Shown here: piece by piece, positions 1 to 61,105 of the stretch
Position numbering within the stretch: position 1 is the stretch's first letter
Layout: each line of letters begins with the position of its first letter
Source of the DNA: Albula goreensis
Taxonomy: Eukaryota; Chordata; Actinopteri; Albuliformes; Albulidae
Direction: 5' to 3'
Length of the DNA: 64,000 nucleotides
Assembly (NCBI GenBank): GCA_022829145.1
Contig: CM040742.1
Coordinates: forward strand, 4,463,658 to 4,527,657
Translations under genes and position numbers: made by a program
The notes under the pieces: generated by a model
Databases searched by the model: none
The model's input: only the letters and a program-made list of their open reading frames with translations
Told to the model about the DNA's origin: nothing

Positions 1-2100
1 ACCGTCTCTGATTCTTGACGATATCCATCCGTTATAATAGACTTTTCTCGGTAACTGGTTCTTTTTAACAGTTTTTAGATGTTCATGCCCAGGAAATGTG
101 CCTATCCTTGGCGTTTCAGAGTAGATACAAATAACACTTCGGTAGGTGAGTGGGTGGAGTTCCGTTTTAGGAAGCACGTGCTTTCATCATGCACCCGTGC
201 TGTTTCTCTCCCCTACTCTGCCTCTGTTAAAGTACAAATTCACCCGACTATTTCCTACTGCAGCACTCTAATGAAGTCTCAAAAATTAGAATTCATAATA
301 TTTCGTTGATGCTCCAAGTATTTCATTACAGACAATCTGATCTATTGATCTCTTGTGATGTAAACAATCTGATTCATTGTTTGGTGGCTGTGCTCAAGGA
401 ATGTACGAGAGTGTACCAGAAGGATTTTAACAAGCAGGCAGCAAGTTCCAGTTGCAAGTGCTGAAATGTAAAGTATTGCTTTAGGTTGGGGTTTATCTGC
501 TAATGAACATGATAGTGTGGATGAAAATGAACTGTATGCATGAAGTAGTGAACTGTGAAAAGTTATTTAATGGAACAAAATTCAAGATGTACAGGGGGAT
601 CAACATTCTAGGGGATGACATGCTCAGATTTGAAAAATAATTATTGTCATGGATTAGTTGCTTGTAAGCCACCCACACAATAAGCACATAATTTGTTCGT
701 ATTTTACCTCACATTTATACAGAAAGAGTTCATTGAGACGTTTTGGTTTTAAATGCCATGGCAAAGAGCAGAACAGTAATGCTTCAACCCATGAATCAGA
801 TGTGAAAAATGGAAGAGGTAAACTCAATTCCATAACCACAAAATCTCAGTACATACTTACTCCGTACATTAAAATGTAGTTATTCACATGTGCAAAACAA
901 ACACAAAAGCCCTCACTCCTGTTCACCATTGTTCATTACACAAGGCAGTTTTTCAACATAGTTGGAACAGTGAAATGTCCCTAATTTCATGACAAGCGAA
1001 AATGCAGCAAAACTACGCCCTCTAGTGTAAGCAATGGGACATTGTAGCTTGAACTCCATGATAAATTACACGGCCTCCCTACTTGAGAGACTTATAAATT
1101 TGATCAATCGTTACAGCATCCAGTCTGATAAGCGGATAAATGCGCAACTGAGGCAGATACACAGTTGAGCAAAGTTTAAGCCTGATTAAACCTAGGGGAC
1201 ACAACCAATTTAAACATGAAGGATGTTTTGGTAACCATGAAGTCGTCTAAGACAATAGGTTAATGCAGAGTCAACTCATCTTGGTAATTACTGGCATGTT
1301 GTCACTTTTTCACTCTTGCTCAGTATTTTGACTACAACACCATCAAGCTGTCATAGACTATCAGCACAAACTATCTTGTGTGCATTTACAATGCTGCATC
1401 AAAAGTCTAGCATCAAAAACAAACAAACAAACAAACAAAAAAAACAACTGGAATCAGCACATGCATAATACAGCATCTATTTCTTCACTTCTACTTTTTT
1501 ATTTTTGATATTCATAAAAGGCAGGAATAGTCTTAAAACAATTGAGCAAGCTCCAAGCTAAAGCAAGGGCTTCACCAGAAGGATCAAAGTCTTTCCATAA
1601 ATCCTGCCAATCTCTGCTCAATTTAATTATCCCAATAAGTCACTTGATGTGGGATGTTTCATCATATTATTTCTGGCAGCTAAAGACTGTGTGCATATTG
1701 TTACTGTCTGATAGAGCAGTGAACACACATTGGTGTATATATCTATTTAGCAAATGATTCACACAAAATCGGGTGGAGAAAAAAATCCTGAACACTGTGC
1801 TGTGTGCTTCTGCATATGGTAAAGGTACCCAGAAATTCACCGTTTAGACAATGAATCTTCAGGGTCACATCTTTTGTAACTCGCTTGAGAACCACGGTCC
1901 ACATGACTGTTCCAGTGTAGTTTAGAGTGTTTTAAAACGGTCGAAATACATAGAAACGGGAAAATGACTGTTTATCGTTACATTTACCCTTACATTACAC
2001 ACACATGAATTCATCACTTGGCTCAAACTTGTCACATGGTGAATTTAAGCCAACCAAAAGAGACTGCGCATTGTGGTAAAAGACAACGCTTGACAATTGA
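1..2100. other. Intergenic DNA upstream of rbm4, no gene recognised
   Basis: AT-rich sequence with only short open frames (76 codons or fewer) that do not resemble any family I know and lack splice-site context. It contains an A-rich (AAAC)n-like stretch near 1419-1447. It could hold the distal promoter of rbm4 or the 3' end of a neighbour outside the window; nothing in the sequence decides this. Confidence 0.5.
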
Positions 2101-2116
2101 TTGACAGCAGATATAA

Positions 2117-2245
2117 CCAATTATATTTCAGCGAGACTGTGTTTGGTCCAATAGCTGATCCGTTCAAGCCACACCTCCGAACGGATGATATCATTTGTGA
2201 CGCCATTTCGTAACACAGCGGGTGGAAGTTGCTACAGCGGAAAAG
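2117..2245 (+). promoter_or_regulatory. rbm4: Probable rbm4 promoter and non-coding first exon
   Basis: A CCAAT box at 2148-2152 and a second CCAAT at 2117-2121 precede a GC-richer stretch containing TGACG at about 2199. The stretch ends in a good splice donor (AAAAG then GTATGA, exon end at 2245). The next acceptor that fits is TTTGCAG at 3097-3103, just before the rbm4 ATG. RBM4 genes normally have a non-coding first exon, which supports the reading. No TATA box is visible. The start of transcription is inferred. Confidence 0.45.
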
Positions 2246-3110
2246 GTATGAAACTGCTTTGTTTGTACAAATTGTATCAATTGCATAGACTTTTAGTAAA
2301 TGTCTACTCATATGATAGAGTTAAATCCAGTATATTTTCCGTGAACTGGTACAGAAATTTCAGCATGTAACAGTAAAAGCACGTTTGACTTTTTCCTGAA
2401 CAATGAACTCAAGCCAGCACTGGGTTCCGTGTCTTCGCTAGTTCATCATAGTTGCTAGCAAGCCAAATAATTTTTTTTCATGTATTTGTTGCTGGTAAGT
2501 AATCTACATTAACTGCAATAAGTAGTTTGCACGTTGGATTGTGATTTATCTAATCGTTTTGTTAATGTTTGCATTTAATTGTGGATATTTTCCTCTGCGG
2601 CCTTCCCTTTTTTGTCTGCTGCCTGGACTGAAACGCGCGCGCGTGAGCTAGCAAGCTAACATGTTTACTTTTTAGGTGGTGGCACACAGTGTGCATAGAA
2701 TTGCATCTGTTCTCATTTTCTGACAATTTTCTTTTTAATCTCTGGTGTAGCATTTTGGCTTGCTTGATCCGTTTTGTTTTGGGTGTGAGGATCTGGAGAT
2801 AAACTCAGGCCTGGCGTTATTTTGAGTCTGAAACTTTAATGTTGCTCCATTGCTTGCGGGTTTAATTCCCATAGGGGCGTTGAATCGGCGGTTATCTCTT
2901 TATGCAGTGCTAAGGGTTGTCTCAAATCCAGTTTAACTCCAGTTCTACCAAAGTTCTACATCAAGTTGTTAATGCAGTATGATATACTCAGAAGTGACTG
3001 TTCACTTGGTATGTGGATACGTGCATCTGTTCTGTTTATTAATTGCTCAGCATGGTAGAAGTCCTAACCTGTGTCCATTGCCGTCTCCTGTCTATGTTTG
3101 CAGTAGCACC

Positions 3111-5484
3111 ATGGTGAAGATTTTCGTGGGTAACCTGTCCGAGGACACCACTGCGGAGCAGCTTCGTTCGCTGTTCTCCCAGTACGGCACCATCTCGGAG
3201 TGCGACGTGCTGAAGAAGTATGGCTTCGTGCACATGGACGACAAGGTGGAGGCAGACGAGGCCATCCGCCGGCTCCACCACCACCAGCTGAACGGCCAGA
3301 CCATCAACGTGGAGATGAGCCGCGGCAAGACCAAGAACTCCACCAAGCTACACGTGGGCAACATCAGCAGCAGCTGCACCAACCAGGAGCTGCGCGCCAA
3401 GTTCGAGGAGTACGGCCCCGTGGTGGAATGCGACATCGTCAAGGACTACGCCTTTGTGCACATGGAGCGGGTGGAGGATGCCATGGAGGCCATCAACGGG
3501 CTGGACAACACCGCCTTTCAAGGTGACCCCCCAGGCGTGGGTGGGGAGGGGTGATTCAGATGGGCCTGACAGGGACTGAGCATGTGCGTCTTAACTTTTA
3601 AGGCTGCACTGGCATATGTGACGAGCGTAGCCGTTGTTAGTTTTGGCCACAGAAAGCGGAAGGCAGTGTGGCTTAATTCCAAACAGGAGAACTGGATGTT
3701 GGGACTCACCTTTGTGCTGAGAGTGTGATGGAAAAAGGTTTATAAGGGAAGGGCAGGTCCTGTACAGGCACCTAAGTTAGTTCAGGAGTGACAAGCATAC
3801 TCGGATCCCATCACAAGTATATTTCATTCTATGGATGTTTTCATTGTACGTAGTAGCTTGGGCCCGTAGTCTGTGGTCACCTTGCATATCGGTGAAGTCA
3901 CTGTGCTGTGTTACAGCTGGTGGAAAGTTCTGGCTTTTGGATCGCGCTTGATTTTCAAGTTCCCGTTTTTGTACATTCAGAGAAATGAAAAGGTTGTGCT
4001 ACGTACATAACGAATGGCGATACACCTCTACGTTAGTTTTCAGCGCATCTTAAACATCCATTTTTAGCATGTCGTCCATTTTAATCCGTTTTGTCCCTAC
4101 TTTTGGCCCTTGAAATAACATGACCCTTTTTTCTCCCTTTACTGAGATGGCAGTGTTCATGTAAAAATTTTCAGTGAGGTGGGCAAATGTGACACGGGAT
4201 ATGGAGCAGAGAAACAGATGGTGTTTCTGGTCTTTCACACTGATGCATACCCGTGTGAAACTTGGTAAGAGAAACAGAGGTTAAAATGTAAGGCATAACA
4301 CCTTCATGCCCAAGAAGGAAAAGGTATATCTTCAAGATAATGGTAAGCTTGGTTAAGGAGGCTTTGGGTTAAATTTAAAAGTAAAAACATTTTTAACACT
4401 GCTTTCGTTTTGCAGTTGGCCTTTGTTGACGTTTCTGAAAAAGATAGGCATATGAGCTTATTGATTGATAAGATGGTGAAATAACTACATTTTGGTTTAC
4501 TAGTGGGGTTAATGGATTTTGTTTATTGACAGATTAAGGGCGTTCATGTCTGCAGAAGGGGATGTTCTGCTGTTTGAGAACGGAATCACTCAGCCGTTGT
4601 TCCTAGTGGCACAGGAGGTACCAAAATTGTCTTTGCGTCTTTCTCTCTTCCCCAAGGCAAGCTGATGAGCGTGAAGCTTTCCACTAGCCGCCTGCGTACA
4701 GCTCCGGGAATGGGCGACAGGACGGGGTGTTATCGGTGTGGGCAGGACGGGCACTGGTCCAAAGAGTGCCCCATGGACCAGAACGGCTCGTATGAAGCGG
4801 GGGCCAACGGCTACGGCCCATCCAGGTTCGGCGGCGGCGGTGGCGGCAGTCGCGGCCGCGGTTTCCCCCGGGGGCTCGGCGGAGACCCGGGCTTCGGCGG
4901 CAGCCACGGTCCTGTGCACGGTTTCGGCAGGGGGCCCGGCTTCGGCGGTGGACCCGGGTATGGCAGGGTGGCCGGTTACTGAAGGCGGTATGGCTTACAG
5001 AGCGCCGGCGGGCTACGGCGCGGGCGGTGAGAGTAGTATGGCCCGGGCATACGGCGGTGAGGCGGCTTACGGATCCGGCGGCGCGAGCTTTGCGGCAGCA
5101 CCGGCCTACCCACCGAGGCGCGCCAGCTATGAGGAGCGGGACCCGTACGGCGTCGTGGACTTCTACGAGAAGTACCGGGCGCGTCCGTATGGTGCCGGCT
5201 TCTACGAGGAGCAGCAACGCGGTGCCTTAGCTCCTCCCTCTTCTCTTGCCCCCTCTGCTGCCCTCGACCCCTACGATCGGCGGGCCATCCCCGCTCCGTC
5301 GGTGGCCGTCTCCTCGTACTACGCCCGAGACCGCAGCCCTGTCCGACGGGGCCCCTCCGGGGCACAGGGCTACGCGTTTGAACGCTCGCGCCTCTCGCCC
5401 GTTTCCTCCATGTCCAGGAGCTCGGCGTTCGACGGGATGCGAGCCAGGGACCCCTACGGCGATCGGGCGCGGTATGCGTTTTAA
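3111..5484 (+). CDS. rbm4: RNA-binding protein 4 (RRM-RRM-CCHC), apparent frameshift in last coding exon
   Basis: RBM4 is a nuclear/cytoplasmic RNA-binding protein that controls alternative splicing and translation. Coding exons are 3111-3522 and 4657-5484, joined in phase 1 (donor AAG/GTGACC, acceptor CCCCAAG). RRM1 spans about residues 2-72 (RNP2 KIFVGNL, RNP1 KYGFVHM) and RRM2 about 78-148 (KLHVGNI, DYAFVHM). The zinc knuckle is at 162-175 (C162, C165, H170, C175). A Gly/Arg-rich stretch follows, and the frame then hits TGA at 4980-4982 after 245 residues. The following frame (from 4981) resumes the typical RBM4 C-terminus with [22 protein letters not shown] and a terminal DRARYAF, stopping at 5482-5484. 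One surplus base near 4977-4980 explains the break. Intact length would be about 412 aa, against 364 in human. The start ATG follows a splice acceptor and matches the family N-terminus MVKIFVGNL. The break may be an assembly error or a real allele. Confidence 0.93.
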
Positions 5485-7650
5485 CACCGGCACCACCAGG
5501 TGAGAGCTGGCTTGGCTTGCCAGGGACAGAGTACAGACCTTATTCACTTGCTTGCCTTAAGTGTGTAAGTTAAGTGCGCATAAATTTAGTTAAGGTTTCT
5601 AGTGCCCGTGTTTACACAATAATCTATTTGTATTTAAATCTTAATATCACCATATTGGAGTGAATTTGGGAGTCCTCATTGTCCTTTTCTGGAGTAAAGA
5701 AGTTAAGTTTTCAGTAACTTCAGTCAGAATTGTGATGTGATTAGTAACTATAGCATAAGTGTATGGCCCGCTGTCCAGACATTGGTGGAAGCCGCGCATG
5801 TGCCCCCCCACCCCCGCGATGGTCGCCATGGAAACTCACGGTGGTGTAATGTCGTCTGCTCTCTCTCTGCAGGTGTCTCTGCCGCGACGCGCCTCCAGAC
5901 GCGCGTTCGGTCGCTCGTTTCGACTCGCGGCGCGTTTCCGACTGTGCCGTGATCGGGGGGATGGTGGTATAGTGGACTGTCTCTCGTTATCTACCAATTT
6001 TTAGTTTTGTCATTTTTGTTTTTACCAAATTTTTCCTCCTTTTGATGCAGAAATGTTGCATAGATTATTTTTTGTTTTTGTTTTTACGAGTGTAGCAATT
6101 CTTGCTGTCTTGAATCTTTTACTCAAACACAGCTGTTATTTTAAGCATCACTGCAGAGCTAGATGTTGGTGTGAGCTTCATTTCCAGTTTCTACTGTTTC
6201 TGTAGTCTGCTTACTTCCAACTGCTAACATGTGTTTTCTGTATCTACTTTCAGAAGAATTAGTCTTGCATACATTGAAATCTTGCTGAATTTTAGTAGTA
6301 TCTACTGTTTCCTTCTGCAATGGGAATCCTCAGCCAACATGGGTGACCCTCTATGTGTGTGAAAGTGCTTCTGGAAAGTTCCGCTGCCAAAAATAAGGTG
6401 GATGACAGGTGGTGTAATCGAACCACTGCAGTGAAAAGTCCGTATTCTTTGGAAGTGGCGCGTCTTTTTGTAATCTCAGCTCTCCACTTCTACAGCCACG
6501 CAGTTAAACTGGTATAAAAATGCTTTTATTTAAAGGAGATTGTTCTTTTGCGTTTTGGGAAATGGGGTCAAGAGGAAAGTGGGTACTGAGGAGAGGCTGC
6601 AAGACTTTCCCCTCTGAATTGTAGGTAAATAGTCCCCCTATGTGACCAGTTTTCTTTGGTGGTTGGGAAAAGAGGTCCTGTAGTTCCTGGTGAACTACAA
6701 CCAGGGTCAGGGAAAATACCTTTTCACCTCTGTTTATGATTGTTGGTAAACAGGAAGTCACTGCTGCGAACAGGAAAAGCACCACAGTGCGAATGCCCAT
6801 CGTTAAATGGGCCACCAGCACCCCGTCCTTATTCATACATGTGTATGTGGTTATGTTGGCCGCAGCATTATCGGACTTCAAATAAGCTTCCTGACCCTCC
6901 CACACTTGCGCGCACACACGCACACACTCCATTTGGGCAGAGACTAACAGGTGTTTATTAGCTGAGTGGTGAGTTTGTGGGACAGGGGCGTCGCGAGCAG
7001 CAGGATACGGAGCCTTCGTTTTCAGGCTAAATCTCCTCCCCAGCAACCGGAAGTTCAACCTGTCGCTCACCTGATCTCTGCAGAATGCTATCACCCAGTG
7101 GTGTGCTCTGTTAATATTTTAGGTAGCTATGCTTGTGCATGCTCTCTGTTGCATTGTATGCCCTCCCTTCCTCACTTGTGCGTAGAGGTCTGCAGTAGCT
7201 AAGCTGCATAGGGCGTGGTAGTTTAAGGTGCCATAATTAGAAACTGGTTCCTTTTGAAGATCAGTCGCCTTTTATCAGGTTCATGTTTGTATGATCTCGC
7301 CTTGGCTGGCTTTGCAGCTCGGGCAGAGTAGTGTGAAAGTAGTATCACAGTACAGTACAGTAAATGATCATGACTGTTTGGCAGTTCAGATACAGTTATG
7401 TTCAGTCTGGGCACCTGATGGTAGCAGCAGAATTTGGTAGTTTAGGGGAGGGCGGGGGAGGTTGCTGTTGGGTGCTTCAAGTCACCTCACGGCTGTACAC
7501 GGTCAGAGTTCGGGCCAAACGCAGTCCCAGGAACTGATGGCTTGCCGTTTTTAAAACCTTTTCTTTGGCCACAAGGACATGGAGGCTATATTTTGAGCAG
7601 TGTTTCTGTAAACATTACCCTTTCTCAATAAAACTCCTTAAAACAATGCT
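5485..7650 (+). other. rbm4: rbm4 3' untranslated region with a spliced terminal exon
   Basis: Fifteen bases after the stop codon there is a strong donor (CACCAG/GTGAGA, exon end 5499). A strong acceptor lies at 5871-5872 (CTCTCTCTGCAG). RBM4 genes commonly end in a separate 3'UTR exon. Because the stop is so close to the junction, the normal transcript should escape nonsense-mediated decay. The exon runs T-rich to an AATAAA at 7627-7632. The 3' end is inferred. Confidence 0.6.
7627..7632 (+). terminator. rbm4: Polyadenylation signal, likely rbm4
   Basis: Canonical AATAAA followed within about 40 bases by a T/GT-rich stretch (GTGTGCTCTTTTTTGC). It is the first strong signal after the rbm4 terminal exon. 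A second AATAAA at 8506-8511 could serve a longer form. Confidence 0.55.
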
Positions 7651-25000: not shown

Positions 25001-28000
25001 ATTGGCTTACTGATAAAAATGTCAGTAGATGGTCTGTCTGGCTGAAAGTTTGCCTCTGATCCTCTGAAGGACAGTAGAGAGCTGTTATGGATTGTCATTC
25101 GTACCTGATCCTAGACATGTTATTCTGAGTGAAATGAATGGCCAGAGGTGTGTGTTTTTTTTTTTTTTTTTGGACAGATAACAGTAAAATGGCCTTGTTA
25201 ACTCTGCTTTAATCTTTGAATGCATTCCTGGTTTGCGCAGTTCCAGGTTTTATAAGAAACATGACCGTGTACTGAGTTGAACCGGTCTACTGGTTGCCCT
25301 TAAGTATTTAACATGCTTCCAGTAAGGTCTCCATATGGTCAGTTTTATTAATGGCCTAATGTATAGAGACATTACCTTCACGGCTGTGACAAATCTACAG
25401 GTTTCCTGTAATAAGCCCTGCTTTGTGTGTCCCTTAGATTCGAAACATCCTGAAGCAGGGCATTGAAACACCAGAGGATCAGAACGACTTGCGCAAAATG
25501 CAGCTGAGAGAGCTGGCCCGGCTGAACGGCACCCTTCGTGAGGATGACAACAGGTACTGCCTCCTGGCCACACGCTGACAGGACACCACCCATCCCAACA
25601 TTTGTTTGGCATCCTTACAGTCTTGTAGTAAAATAAGAATGCATAGATGAAAGCACAACCTGAATTGGTTCCTCAAAAATTTTGGGCGATTCCGCCCAGT
25701 TGATTCAGTATCCTGAGAGCCTACTTGTCGTCGTCAATGGGCCGAGCAGGGCTCATTCAAAACAAAAATGGCTCTGCCACAAAAGCACTTTGGTGCAAAA
25801 TGTTCATTTACAGTGCACAGACCCACAAAAATCCAAACCAGGTGCAAAAGTGATGCCATAAGTGAAATATATACAGTGAAAAAATTAAGGAAAAAAAATA
25901 CAAAAATAACAAACTACCACAGCTACTCTCTGGCAAATTGGCAAAATCTCCTCTCTCCTCCTCGAGGAATGGAACTGGGGCTCTTTTATATTCTAAGCCC
26001 CTCCCCCAGAACATGCCAACCATTGCTTTAAAACAAACTACATAATACAGGCAACTTGTAATGGCCAAACACATTAATAAACATTCTACCACAATTAATA
26101 ATCATTTTAACCGGTTAATTTAAAATGCATTTACAAAATACAGGATTATTGTCGTTTTTCCAACAAAACCAAGTAACGTTGGTTTGACCCAATACCTGGC
26201 GGAACCAAACGCGTGCAACTCGAGACAGGCACTACTTAGCCAGCCCGAGTTGCCATGGTTCAGTTTGGGTCCTCACACTGGTAATTGCTGCCGGAAGCAT
26301 TCGGCATTGGCGTCCAGACAAGCAAACGGAGAACAGAAGACAGAATGGTGTAACAAATACATACAGTGCGCTAACGGGGGGAGGGGCAGAAAACAGTTAG
26401 GTTAGGATGTTTGAGTGCAGCCCGCGGCCTGGGACAGAGCCCTCTGTCACACCACTAAAATTGTCAAAGGTGGATAACACAGCAGAAAGCAATTTAGGAA
26501 CATCGTCTGCATATAATGATAATGGGGGTGATAAGAGATGAGTGATGAACTGACTTCGCTAGGAGTTCTAAGGATAGCGCAACAAGCAATGGTGACAATG
26601 GGGCATCCGTGGCGTGTCCCTCTAGAGACGAGGGTATGTTGCCTGGCAATACCATGGCTGACGGATTAGCATAGAGGATTTTAACCATATTAATAAAATC
26701 CTTACCTAAGCCCATGTAAGCCATAACAGACAACAGATATGGCCACTCTGAACGGTCACAGGCCTTCATTACATCCAGTGAGAGTACCGCAAGTGGAGAA
26801 TCAATATATTTGGCATAATCCACAATATGTGGAAGGCGATGAAGGTTATCGGATGCATAACGAGACTGGATAAAGCCTGTCTGATCATTATGTGCTAATT
26901 TAGACAATATTCAAGGCATCGACCAATGGCCTTGGCATATATTCAACAACGATAAAGCTTGTACACCGAGTAGGGTCTTTATCCTTATTCAGAAGAAGAG
27001 ATAGAATGGCTATGTTAATATCGCAGGAAAATGTGCCTTTATGTATCAAATATTGTAACATATTCAGCAGCAAGGGACCTAATAAATGCCAGAAGGCAAG
27101 AATGGAATGCCATCAAGACCAGGCGATTCCCCTCTGTTCATTACTTTCACTGCCTCCCTGCATTCAAGCAGTGGTAGGGGTGCTCCAATCAGAGAAGGAA
27201 CAGAAAATGCAAAAAGGCGCTGCAAAGCCGTAATATTGTTCACACCACCACAATCGTAGTTATGATACTGAGTGAGTCCCTGCGGAGTCCTTCTCCTGCC
27301 CATTACCCAAACCTCTTGGCCACAACAATAAACACATGAAACCCGATAACCCTTTGCAAACCCTTCCGTCTGCAGCTGTGCCAGCAGGCTTGCCACAGCC
27401 CACGCCCGTCAAACGCTAAACTCCATGACCTGCAATGGAAATGGGCAACTAATAACTAATAATCCCACCTACCCCCCCAGCCCCCTAACAATAATCACAC
27501 ACCTCTTATAAAAATGATCTGGTACTACATAGTCCTGACTCATGACCTGGTAGTTAAGGGCAGATAATTAACCAAAGGTAGCTAAATACATCTCTTTATT
27601 ACTCAAGTGAACATAGTGTCATTGTTAGACTATAAAGACCAGGCAGCACAGAATAGCAAAACTATATTTACTGGTAGGTTGTTTCCTTGATGCAGTTAAA
27701 TAACAGCATTTATTTATTTGTAAAATGGAAAGAAGCTAAAGTTTGAAGAAACTGGAATTGAGAATTGAAGCCACTGAAATAAGGAGCAGAGGGCATGGCA
27801 ATCAAAACTGAAGTAGCTGTCGTGTGTGAATAGTTCAGCGCAAAAAAAAAAAAAAAAAAGAGAGAACGACTAAACAGAGCTTGGCGGGGTTCTCAGTCAC
27901 GCGTAGACCAGACAGGTCACTTTTAATGCCCTCCATGCACTCCTGTAAGTTGCCAAATTCTTTTTGAATGGTGTTGAGCTTGTCATCTGACGCGTTGCCC

Positions 28001-52104: not shown

Positions 52105-52828
52105 ACCCCCTCGCCAGAGGATACTGGCAAGTGTAAGTGGCTCCAAAGTCTCATCCAAAGACTGCCTTTGTCTCCCATAAAGGACTATATCAGTTTAATG
52201 TCATGCCCTTTGGCTTGTCAAATGCGCCAGCAACCTTTCAACAATTGATGAACTCTGTGTTGGCTGGGCTAATATACAATTCCTGTGTGGTTTATCTGGA
52301 AGACATTGTTGTCACTTCCCCCACTTTCAAACATCACATTGAAGACCTCACGAGGGTGTTGGGCCGCTGGTTTGTCCCTGAAGTTGAAGAAATGCCACTG
52401 TTGCAAGTCTTCCCTTCGCTACTTAGGCTATATGGCGACACCAGAAGGTTTGAGCCCAGATAAAAACAAAGTGAGTGTCATCAAGGACTTCCCAGAGCTA
52501 ACGTCTGTGAAGCAGGTTCAGCAGTGCCTTGGTATGACCAGCTACTATAGGCGGTTTATCTCAGAATATGCCAAGATCGCTGAGCCCATCATTTCCCTGA
52601 CCAGAGATGGAGTGCCATTCACATAGGAGGAGAGCTGTCAGGAGGCACTAAAACACCTGAAATTGCATTTGACCACAGCCCCTGTGTTGGTTCTCCCAGA
52701 CTCTGAGAAGCCGTTTGCAATCCACACAGATGCTTGTGATGTTGGTTTAAGTGCAGCTGTGGTTCAGAACAGATGATAAGGAAGTCGAAAGAGCTTTGGC
52801 ATTTGCCAGCCGCACGCATGCCGTCTTC
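52105..52828 (+). mobile_element. Ty3/gypsy pol fragment (RT and RNase H) inside the LINE
   Basis: The frame carries LTR-retrotransposon reverse transcriptase motifs ([20 protein letters not shown]) and the active-site box YLED at 52293-52304, where the family has YLDD. Downstream are YLGY, LGMTSYYRRF, an RNase H start (HTDACD) and ERALAFASR. Several stops and at least one frameshift (near 52370) disable it. No LTR, integrase or gag flanks it, so it is not a whole inserted element. Confidence 0.8.
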
Positions 52829-57292: not shown

Positions 57293-57621
57293 AAGAAATT
57301 AGATTTGCTGGACCAGGGTTGGTGTTCACCTCTGTCACCTCGGAAGTGCTTACACCAACGGAAATTTGTTGTCAGTTATGAGTAAAAGATGAAAATTCCT
57401 TACTCACTTTCTTACTGACTTGGATTTCTAAAATTCTAGAGAGTGTTATCAGCACACATTGGTTTACAAAATATAGTTTGTGCTACTCACACTTTAAGAA
57501 AATGATGCTTTAACAAAGACAAAAAAGAAAATTGTTCAGTTCATGCTGGTCATATGCAGGCTAAAAGATATTGGCTACCATTTGACATGGGGTATCAGTC
57601 AGTAATTAGTCAATAGGTCAT

Positions 57622-57833
57622 TGTGAAGGAGTGGACCTTCCCAATTGACTGAAGCATTGTTAATTGCTTGATTGTTAATTGAAACCTGGTGTTTGTTACT
57701 AGCTATAAAAGTAGCATTTCAGTTGAGTGAGGAGAAGAGAAGATGAGCCAGAAATGCCTGCTTGTGTGTTTTTAAAATAAATTATAGTTTTATGAAGTTG
57801 ATTTTACTCAGTTGTTTATAAGCCTTTTTTACA
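57622..57833 (+). repeat. 5' LTR of the miniature element
   Basis: Starts TGTGAAGGAGTGGACC and ends CCTTTTTTACA. It has a TATA box and a downstream AATAAA in the order expected for U3-R. It is preceded by GTCAT. Confidence 0.9.
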
Positions 57834-57835
57834 TT

Positions 57836-57852
57836 TGGTGTCAGAGTGGGAT
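57836..57852 (+). other. Primer binding site, tRNA-Leu type
   Basis: TGGTGTCAGAGTGGGAT starts two bases after the 5' LTR. It begins with TGG (complement of tRNA CCA) and matches the pattern seen in elements primed by tRNA-Leu. Confidence 0.8.
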
Positions 57853-58392
57853 TTTAGCCCCTGTTCCTTTGGGGTGACCCGCTTTTTAAAAAAGGCTTTT
57901 AAATTGGTTTGTGCTGAGTTTTTATTAGACTTGGAGATTTTTAATGCAAGCAACCTTCACAAGAAAGGACTGTGCATAGACCTGTCCAAGTGAAGATGTA
58001 GGTGGGGCTTAAAGGGGACCAGAGGAAGCTGACAGAGCAGTGGGGCCCATGAGTGGGAGCAGCTGGGTACCCCTTTAATTGAATGGGGAGCTGTAGCTGG
58101 CTCTGGGAGGAGTTCTGGTCCAGAGCCCAAAAGGGAGACAACTCTGTGAGCCAGTATGAGGGGCCTATAGCCAGTTGGGAGGTGGTGTCCTGTCCCTGTA
58201 GTGCAGTGAATGCCAGAAGGAGGAGTTACCTCGGTTGTCTAATTGGGGACCAAGCCTCAACAATCTGGAAGAGAAGCTTTCCAGCATGAACGTCTTGAAC
58301 AATTGTGGTTGAATGCAGACTTTGTATTAAGACTTCGGTACCTGCCATGTCTTGCAATACTGGGTATGCAAGACTGGAGAGGAGGGAGGAAA

Positions 58393-58562
58393 TGTGAAGG
58401 AGTGGACCTAAGTGTTAATTGCTTGATTGTTAATTGAATTCTGGTGTTTGTGGCTAGCTATTTAGAATAGCTAATTAAAGTAGCATTTCAGTTGAGTGAG
58501 GAGAAGAGAAGGTGAGCCTGCTTGTGTGTTGTTTTTAAGCCTTTTTTTTTTTTTTTTTTACA
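58393..58562 (+). repeat. 3' LTR of the miniature element
   Basis: Starts TGTGAAGGAGTGGACC and ends in a long T run followed by ACA. It is shorter than the 5' LTR through a deletion after GTGGACCT and loss of the segment with AATAAA, and has a small insertion where the 5' LTR has its TATA box. It is followed by GTCAT. Confidence 0.9.
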
Positions 58563-58567
58563 GTCAT

Positions 58568-61105
58568 TGTTATACATTTGTATGATATTATGTGATGTGA
58601 CACTCAATTTGACATTGTCAGATATGTGCACTTTAAGAAAAACATGAATTATATATATATTTTTTTAAAACTCTCTTTTCTACCACTGCTAAAACTACCT
58701 TGTGTAAAGGTTTGCCTGCAACGTGAGCATGCATGTGCTTCTAGGGGGAGGAGGCTGAACTTTGTAATGTCGGTAGAGGGAGGAGGTTGAGGGGGTCCTG
58801 GTTTAACAGCAGTTACTGTTCTACAGCAAGAACATAATGTTATTTTTTTTCCTCTTTCTCTGTGCATGTGTCGTGTGTGTGTGCTTACTCCAGCCAGTAT
58901 TACTTTGTCTATCCTGCAATCTTTTGTGTGCTCTATTTGCCACCAAACAAACCTGATCCCTTTGCCCCACTTCCTTCTCTCCACAGCATGTGTTTCTTAA
59001 TTACTGCCTCATTTCGTTCATTTAGCTTTTATAATCCTCTGACCCCTCCCCCACCACCCCACCCCACCCTCACTGCCTCTCACACACCGCCCCCCACCGC
59101 CCCCCTTCATTGTGAAAGTATAACCAACCTCGAATTTTACAGCAACACAAAAAGCGCAGACACCTAGTCCCTGCATTCACAAACTGGAATCCCGGCTATT
59201 TCTGCCCATCACCACTGCAGCAAGAGGAAGGATTGTGCCTAGCCAAAGGTACCGAGAATGCCAAGCGGATTTATTCCACTTTGCTATTTATAATCCAAAG
59301 TTGGGGAAAAAAAAAAAAAAAAAAAAGCTACAAAGCTGAAGAAATTCCACAGCCTGTATACAGACCTTAACCTGCAGTGTGTTGCTTTTTTCTTCATTTT
59401 TTCATTAATATTACTTGAACAGTCTGACTGCACCATGGGCGGAACAGTATCGTAAATCTTGAAAGATCACATCATTTCTTTTCATTAGTTTTTATCTTTG
59501 TTGTTTGGAGCTGAAACCTTGTATATTTATCTTTAAAATTCATGAAATTGATTCACTGATTGCCCTGGATTTGAGCTACGCAACAGCACTATGCACAGAA
59601 CGAACATTTTTCAACACTTTGTATGAATGACTATCGTTGAAACTCAGCAACTGAGTACGCTGTTCAGTTCATCGACATTTCATCCCTCGTAGCTATTTCA
59701 GCATTTTGGATTGCACATAATACTTTCGCAGTGACTCCAGGCACAATGTAAGTAGTTCCAATATATTCAATATAATCCAAAGACCCTACTCCTTAAAGAA
59801 TACCAAAGTACAAAGCTTATTATTGTATAACACTTTAGACATCTCACTCAACAATATACTGCCAAAAAATCTGGCCCATGTATTCTCTTTTTATATTTCA
59901 AAATCCTTGTAAATGTAAAAGTAATATATATTGGATCAAAATCATTGGCCAATTCAACAAGTAAAAAGTACACAAAAATAATACTTAAAATATAACCAAT
60001 ATTCATTGGATGGTTTGTATTCACAAATTCCTCATTTAACATGTACTGATTAGTTAAAGGTATATTTTGAGTCTATTTGGTATGTTTACTTTGTATATCT
60101 AGTGACATATTTTTTCTGGAAATCCTGTGCAAAATACTAGAGCTCAGAGTGTGTGCATGTATATGTGTGTGTGTGTGTGTGTATGTGTTTGTAGATGTTT
60201 AAGTGATGGTTTCAACAATAATGTGTACAAACAAAAATCAAAAGCACAATAATACTAGCACAACTAAAGTTATCAAACAGATCTGTGGCCTTCCAACCCT
60301 GCTTGGATGGTACAGCAAAAGCTATAGGCAAATGTATGATAAAGCTTAGGATAATCCACTGGTACTTAAATACGTAAATACTGGTGAGAGCCACCTCTTA
60401 GTCAGTCATGCCCATTCCAAATAAGTATTCCTTAGAAGTGCCTACAGTCCTAACAGCTACCTACAGGGCCTTAGAGGTTATGCACTGGAAATCCCAAACT
60501 TCTCAGTAGGTGAAACCTCCTCCCAAGAGTTCAGACTGGGCCTCACAAATCACAGGTCTGAACATTGGTGACATCACTGGCTGGAAGTCACCAGTGGAGG
60601 GGCAACTGGTTAACCCTGCAATGGGGGAGGGTGGGGCAGAGTTCATTTGGTTTCTTGTTCCTAACCTGTTGCTGGTAGTGAGAACTACACCTCTGTCCTG
60701 ATCACCAGCAGCTCTCCTGCATTTCTGCGTGGTACTATGTTCTTCAATGGCAGTTTTTACTTAGTTGCTCTGAGAAGATGTTTAAAGAAGCACATTAGGC
60801 ATTTCATTGTATGGAACACACTCTGTGACTGTACATTGTGATAAATTAGACAGACAGATAGATAGACAGACAGACAGAGACAGATAAATAATGGATTGAT
60901 TGATTAGATAACGTGCTTAAGTTGCGGGGCACCAAGTTGTTCTTCAACAACTAGCAACTTAAAGAACCGTTTTTTAAAACATCAGACTGATTTTTGTATT
61001 TCCCTCTTGAAGTGACAGCAGTGTTTGTAGCCACTGGTTGTGAGGTAACCTTCAGTCCTTGCCGATCCTGCCTGCACCGTCTCCTCGTCCCAGCTCTGCG
61101 CTGCC
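58568..61105. other. Spacer upstream of the slc22a gene
   Basis: Contains a C-rich tract (59041-59106), poly-A (about 59308-59327), a TG microsatellite (60149-60192) and a GACA/GATA microsatellite (60848-60890). A donor-like CACAAT/GTAAGT at about 59747 and an acceptor-like GTGACAG at about 61017 could belong to a non-coding 5' exon of the transporter gene, but nothing proves it. No coding frame is recognised. Confidence 0.4.
60848..60890. repeat. GACA/GATA microsatellite
   Basis: Interrupted (GACA)n and (GATA)n units, about 40 bases. Confidence 0.8.

Follow-up and report, generated by a model that had tools for sequence, protein, structure and literature searches.

Within a stretch of 64,000 nucleotides from the genome of Albula goreensis (GenBank assembly GCA_022829145.1, contig CM040742.1, positions 4,463,658 to 4,527,657; the whole stretch is referred to as the window) lies an element of 941 bp (57622–58562) that is almost certainly a non-autonomous member of a family of terminal-repeat retrotransposons in miniature (TRIMs). 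The assignment follows from the existence of a repeated, colinear family together with the mutually different 5-bp target-site duplications (TSDs) that flank its copies. On balance we favour a Gmr1-like element of the Ty3/gypsy group, the best-supported candidate from sequence comparison, as the helper; the explanation as a whole, an old and decayed TRIM copy that was mobilised through a cycle driven by Gmr1-like elements, we regard as quite likely to be right. Trans-mobilisation, packaging, transcription and the choice of helper are steps that we infer.

The element reads on the plus strand, and its coordinates, the lengths of its two long terminal repeats (LTRs) with their TG..CA ends, the primer binding site (PBS), the 17-base polypurine tract (PPT) and a flanking pair of GTCAT repeats are all present as an initial, sequence-only reading had described them. 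The TSD occupies 57617–57621 on the left and 58563–58567 on the right. The 5′ LTR (57622–57833, 212 bp) starts with TGTGAAGGAG, ends with TTTTTTACA and contains a TATA-box-like TATAAAAG (57704–57711) and an AATAAA polyadenylation signal (57776–57781). It is followed by an internal region of 559 bp (57834–58392) without detectable coding capacity, in which the PBS-like TGGTGTCAGAGTGGGAT (57836–57852), of tRNA-Leu type and with one base deleted, lies 2 bp inside the LTR, and in which the PPT GGAGAGGAGGGAGGAAA (58376–58392) adjoins the 3′ LTR (58393–58562, 170 bp). The latter is decayed, carries a poly-T run close to its end and has neither the TATAAA nor the AATAAA of its 5′ counterpart. Over the 154 bases that can be aligned between the two LTRs 148 are identical, with three transitions, three transversions and 74 gap columns, corresponding to a Kimura two-parameter (K2P) distance of 0.040.

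The assembly containing the window (932 Mb, 208 contigs) was searched for further copies. Querying with the whole element gave at least 55 matching rows (40 of 180 candidates scored). An interior from a different subfamily gave at least 50 (40 of 56 scored), and the 5′ LTR by itself at least 43 (40 of 180 scored). Merging the rows of the interior search by position and dropping two pieces of 40–46 bp leaves at least 38 interior-bearing loci. The 21 interiors that were compared, including that of the window, are colinear and 73–96% identical, and fall into several subfamilies: the 11 copies of the window subfamily are 87–96% identical among themselves, and the other ten show 76–82% identity to that subfamily and 73–93% to one another. 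Interior lengths range from 483 to 585 bp, with the exception of one copy cut to 308 bp (L018). Against most copies of other subfamilies the window LTR aligns only over approximately its last 70 bases, whereas the interior aligns end to end in most. A direct-repeat pair encloses the interior in 16 of 20 further loci fetched and was not seen in the remaining four (L014, L017, L018 and L028). The miniature form postulated from the window alone is thus genuinely repeated.

LTR lengths in the other 20 measured copies are 195–259 bp, the ends being approximate where no TSD is present, and total lengths over the 21 copies range from 877 to 1266 bp. Eleven are shorter than 1000 bp; of the ten longer ones, nine surpass 1 kb by 13–56 bp and the tenth by 266 bp (L038, the longest copy, which carries an insertion in its interior); in this the family differs from other TRIMs and fits their length of about 1000 bp or less only approximately. 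Of the 21 copies, 11 have TATAAA and 20 have AATAAA in one or both LTRs, and a pattern joining the PPT to the LTR start occurs at 20 places in the genome, the reversed control pattern at none. LTR pairs diverge by K2P distances of 0.024–0.181, and the family has therefore moved over a long time; the window copy is among the less diverged, not the least diverged. Another 22 loci among the listed 5′ LTR matches lie outside the interior list and are taken as solo LTRs or fragments. When five of these were inspected, one (L044) had GTTCA on both sides by eye at a mutated LTR end (scored as two mismatches by the script), two had a TSD with one mismatch (L045 and L047, the latter at a shortened LTR), one was a 3′ LTR still attached to a remnant of the PPT (L046) and one had no TSD (L048). 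Two further features of copy distribution were recorded. At C7:41167800–41176800 (L033, reverse-strand 1570–6267) the 3′ side of a TRIM copy enters long internal direct repeats that are 91–95% identical, and matches cluster in C9:33.6–35.5 Mb, at C9:33641231, 33810419, 34141239, 34560968 and 35463014.

The scan for TSDs covered 23 copies in which the position of both ends was known at least approximately. Exact 5-bp TSDs abut the TG..CA ends of ten of these and all ten are different (GTCAT in the window; AAAAC, CACTG, CTCTG, TACAC, CATTC, GAAGT, GTCCA, GTAAC and AGGAT elsewhere), which is the pattern of shared termini and differing duplications that the sequence-only reading had proposed to look for. 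Four more copies have TSDs with one mismatch, among them one with a mutated LTR start (L022). Since these 14 copies were chosen for their duplications, only the figures for crossed flanks serve as a control: pairing the left flank of one copy with the right flank of another gave an exact match in 0 of 182 combinations and a match with one mismatch in 3 of 182. For seven of the ten exact-TSD copies the joined flanks match nowhere but at their own two flanks, and these copies are therefore separate insertions into unique DNA. The shortened, poly-T-rich 3′ LTR of the window copy, and an LTR pair that is imperfect when considered alone, could be taken to mean that the arrangement is fortuitous or a duplicated non-mobile repeat; such a reading is contradicted by the different TSDs at dispersed unique sites, as judged by the crossed-flank control, and by the at least 38 dispersed interior-bearing loci, and we consider it exceedingly improbable. 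Some observations do weigh against the explanation adopted here. No TSD was found in eight of the 23 copies, and a ninth (L015) offered nothing better than an approximate duplication next to a non-canonical end, which was dropped; the joined flanks of the seven copies did not reveal an empty site in the same genome; and 11 of the 19 copies compared for their PBS carry a deletion or substitution in it.

Among those 19 copies the PBS is the full TGGTGTCAGAAGTGGGAT in eight, lacks one base in five including the window copy, and is substituted or otherwise deleted in six; the particular one-base deletion of the window copy is absent from 14 of the 19. The complement ATCCCACTTCTGACA occurs, with any base but C after it, at 19 places in the genome (one for the reversed control pattern), and in five of the six of these loci that were examined an Rfam tRNA match ends at ATCCCACTTCTGACA. 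By eye, the primer tRNA can be read as tRNA-Leu(CAA) with an intron. ARAGORN called no gene in the same six loci. The end of the LTR and the PBS together form a block, ACA plus PBS (ACATTTGGTGTCAGAAGTGGGAT), that with up to two mismatches occurs at 71 sites (none for the reversed control pattern), 20 of which coincide with TRIM-type matches, one being a rearranged TRIM-type LTR (L032). Inverted-repeat arms at the LTR end (57815–57831) and in the interior (57887–57903) bracket the PBS and could form an RNA stem. Such a stem can be drawn, but with all 29 rows retained, including those without a detectable arm, 89.5% of cells pair against a shuffle mean of 89.1% (84 of 500 shuffles reach the observed value), and its covariation score, attained by 35 of 500 shuffles, is likewise not above the shuffles. 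As a separate observation, four pairs of tRNA-Leu-type PBSs lie 5.48–5.51 kb apart on one strand (C5:19840996/19846485, C10:27841383/27846889, C11:511505/516988 and C24:2449572/2455071), a spacing that suggests tandem elements with a shared LTR.

The interior appears to be devoid of gag and pol, as the sequence-only reading had it. Nine stop-to-stop frames of at least 45 amino acids overlap the window interior, the longest being 94 amino acids; no Pfam match above cut-off was found among the seven of these that were scanned, one match at E 0.033 being at chance level, and when four interiors were translated in all six frames, blastp against Gmr1-like proteins yielded nothing below E 0.06. Two types of non-coding element were considered and rejected. 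An RNA polymerase III-dependent TRIM of the Helenus kind was dismissed on the absence of both tRNA and 5S matches in Rfam, with no tRNA match at E values up to 5 in 57500–58700. A decayed A/B box could escape detection by Rfam and ARAGORN, and the failure of ARAGORN to find a tRNA in the element is a weak test because it also missed true tRNA genes of the same genome. A retrozyme-type ribozyme was dismissed since the only indication, a minus-strand match to RAGATH-7, scored 14.3 bits where the cut-off is 111.8 and was taken as chance. Large retrotransposon derivatives (LARDs) are non-autonomous LTR derivatives with non-coding interiors of several kilobases, and an interior of 559 bp places the element outside that class.

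The sites of ACATTTGGTGTCAGAAGTGGGAT provide the entry point to a candidate helper. Apart from the 20 of TRIM type, 29 of the 71 are followed on the same strand, 607–1000 bp downstream, by a SCAN domain (PF02023, with at least 148 matches in the genome, 150 of 226 candidates scored), and none of these is also of TRIM type; the remaining 22 are neither. Of the 51 non-TRIM loci 11 were fetched, and ten match Gmr1-like proteins (L029, L030, L031, L049, L050, L051, L058, L059, L060 and L061), three of them (L031, L049 and L051) belonging to the group without a downstream SCAN domain; the eleventh (L052) has no protein match. Gmr1-like elements are defined by an integrase that lies upstream of the reverse transcriptase (RT) (PMC3587641), and homology of their gag to SCAN has been published (PMC4592553); in our set the integrase precedes the RT in L049, L058, L059, L060 and L061, and some of the Gmr1-like loci have long open frames. 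One Gmr1-like LTR pair (L062/L063) has LTRs of 903 bp that start with TGTGACGGAG and end with CTCACA, with GGGCG on both sides. Over 25 bases of the PPT/LTR junction it agrees with the window TRIM in 21 and with subfamily C in 22; in a simple simulation with a purine-rich tract, TGT and an otherwise random sequence, 21 was reached in 0.008% of draws. Its LTR start agrees with TGTGAAGGAG at nine of ten bases, the best of the few compared. The Ty3/gypsy partner that had been guessed at is thereby supported and sharpened to a Gmr1-like one, without proof, by the shared PBS, the loci with SCAN or with integrase before RT and the junction match. The check proposed in that reading, for a full-length gypsy element sharing the LTR ends and the PBS, finds the PBS, the ACA end and the 21/25 junction in L062/L063; the whole LTR is unmatched.

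The case for a Gmr1-like helper accordingly consists of the same primer, the ACA end, the length of the TSD in one case and the close junction in one element, and it has to be set against several facts that do not favour it. In this genome we found no autonomous element whose entire LTR is that of the TRIM, and the LTR bodies of the TRIM and of the sampled Gmr1-like elements are not significantly similar. When TRIM LTRs and interiors were compared by blastn with ten Gmr1-like loci, the PBS block matched at E 0.007 and nothing else fell below E 0.08. The spacer ahead of the PBS is ACA-TG-TGG in L062/L063 as against ACA-TT-TGG in the TRIM, and the Gmr1-like loci that do have the TT spacer, L030 and L031, which are the same family, fit the TRIM LTR start less well (seven and six of ten bases). 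Finally, the 51 non-TRIM PBS sites include 19 without demonstrated Gmr1-like identity, 18 of them outside the fetched set and one being the matchless L052. The last point would suit mobilisation by a different clade, of Ty3/gypsy or otherwise, that also uses tRNA-Leu, as would a possible extinction of the helpers from this genome; yet ten of the 11 fetched loci match Gmr1-like proteins and one matches nothing, and a PPT/LTR junction close to that of the TRIM is present in a Gmr1-like element. We therefore regard a helper from another clade as unlikely.

Another origin for the family would be an internal deletion of a single coding LTR element, with amplification after the deletion. Both ends of the interior retain what such a derivative would retain, the PBS and the PPT, and in one locus (L054) a related LTR stands with the PPT and no more than roughly the final 26–36 bp of the TRIM interior, to the rest of which it is not joined, so that relatives of the LTR have, or once had, a different interior. 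On the other hand, none of 94 TRIM-type positions has a same-strand SCAN domain within 12 kb, among the matches listed for both, and the interiors neither match the ten Gmr1-like loci at the DNA level beyond the PBS block nor show coding remnants by the blastp and Pfam thresholds given above. A recognisable deletion derivative of the sampled Gmr1-like elements was rejected, the PBS block being the sole match below E 0.08, and a deletion origin in general seems rather improbable. The LTR of L054 (2051–2275), designated type X, shares the PPT and LTR start of the TRIM, differs in its U3 and is represented by at least 42 genome rows (40 of 55 candidates scored). As the missing partner it was discarded, since neither L054 nor the stretch of 5.7 kb upstream of it (L057) has a Gmr1-like protein match.

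Three further observations concern other reverse-transcribing elements. In a Gmr1-like 5′ LTR (L064/L065, C1) the last 20 bases are by eye the reverse complement of the 20 start bases. Approximately 5 kb upstream of the TRIM, at 52110–52361 on the plus strand of the window, lies a decayed fragment of a Ty3/gypsy RT with an in-frame stop that is 51% identical to a Gmr1-like RT of the same genome. On the minus strand, 26494–26910 contains an open frame of 138 amino acids that by eye resembles the RT of a long interspersed nuclear element (LINE) and has no Pfam match.

TRIMs are on record from plants, hymenopterans, cestodes and bivalves (PMC10886601; PMC3532108; PMC6934838). The window copy combines short TG..CA LTRs, a length of 941 bp, a PBS and a PPT, a non-coding interior and dispersal with TSDs, and its family shares with the plant TRIMs, PbTRIM of the harvester ant (PMC3532108) and the bivalve TRIMs (PMC6934838) a small size (roughly 1 kb at most), short LTRs and an interior without coding capacity. 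With PbTRIM it further has in common the PBS, PPT, TSDs, solo LTRs and subfamilies, and, as described for PbTRIM, no autonomous partner of similar sequence was found; the TSD is 5 bp here and 4 bp in PbTRIM (PMC3532108). The PBS corresponds to an ordinary tRNA 3′ end, in contrast to bivalve TRIMs, which are described as being without a clear PBS (PMC6934838). That TRIMs are seldom described in fish, as the sequence-only reading maintained, is a fair statement and not an absolute one, for Helenus (TRIMp3) includes vertebrate families from zebrafish (LTR-11_DR), sturgeon and coelacanth (PMC10886601). Helenus elements also use tRNA 3′ ends as PBS, tRNA-Leu among them, and for the animal ones a gypsy helper has been inferred from PBS similarity; they differ in carrying a tRNA-derived sequence inside the LTR, which Rfam did not detect here in 57500–58700, and in the 4-bp TSDs of the animal members as opposed to 5 bp (PMC10886601). 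Gmr1-like elements, copies of which are present in a frog genome (PMC4131045), have the PBS and LTR ends of the form TG...ACA in common with the TRIM, and one of them the 5-bp TSD as well; in contrast to the TRIM they encode gag, protease, integrase and RT, and the LTR body of L062/L063 is unrelated. A search by titles and abstract openings, with subscription journals and Repbase outside its reach, returned no literature linking a TRIM to Gmr1-like elements. As far as tested, without comparison to Repbase or other fish genomes, the family is a new one of a known kind.

The cycle that we envisage would begin with transcription of the element from its LTR by the host RNA polymerase II, using the TATA box and AATAAA. 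The RNA would be packaged in particles of a Gmr1-like Ty3/gypsy element, minus-strand synthesis would be primed by tRNA-Leu at the PBS and plus-strand synthesis at the purine tract, and the helper integrase would recognise the TGTGA(A/C)GGAG...ACA ends and insert the DNA, generating the 5-bp duplication. More tentatively, and with rather less confidence than attaches to the identity of the helper, the family may represent a long-lived vertebrate TRIM lineage parasitising Gmr1-like elements, of which it would have kept only the cis signals (PBS, PPT/LTR junction and LTR tips), the LTR bodies and interior being unrelated; the colinear interior of about 560 bp could have been selected as a packaging and priming RNA, with a U3 that is mostly unalignable across subfamilies.

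Vertebrate TRIMs are little described, and the assignment of TRIMs to helpers often rests on a short PBS match. Here a single genome contains the TRIM in copies of different ages, candidate helpers with long open frames and the genes for the primer tRNA, and it is therefore comparatively testable which of the cis signals suffice for a non-coding LTR element to undergo copying in trans. A Gmr1-like helper, if true, would be of additional interest because this clade has been hypothesised to be the source of the SCAN domain in amniote zinc-finger proteins (PMC4592553).
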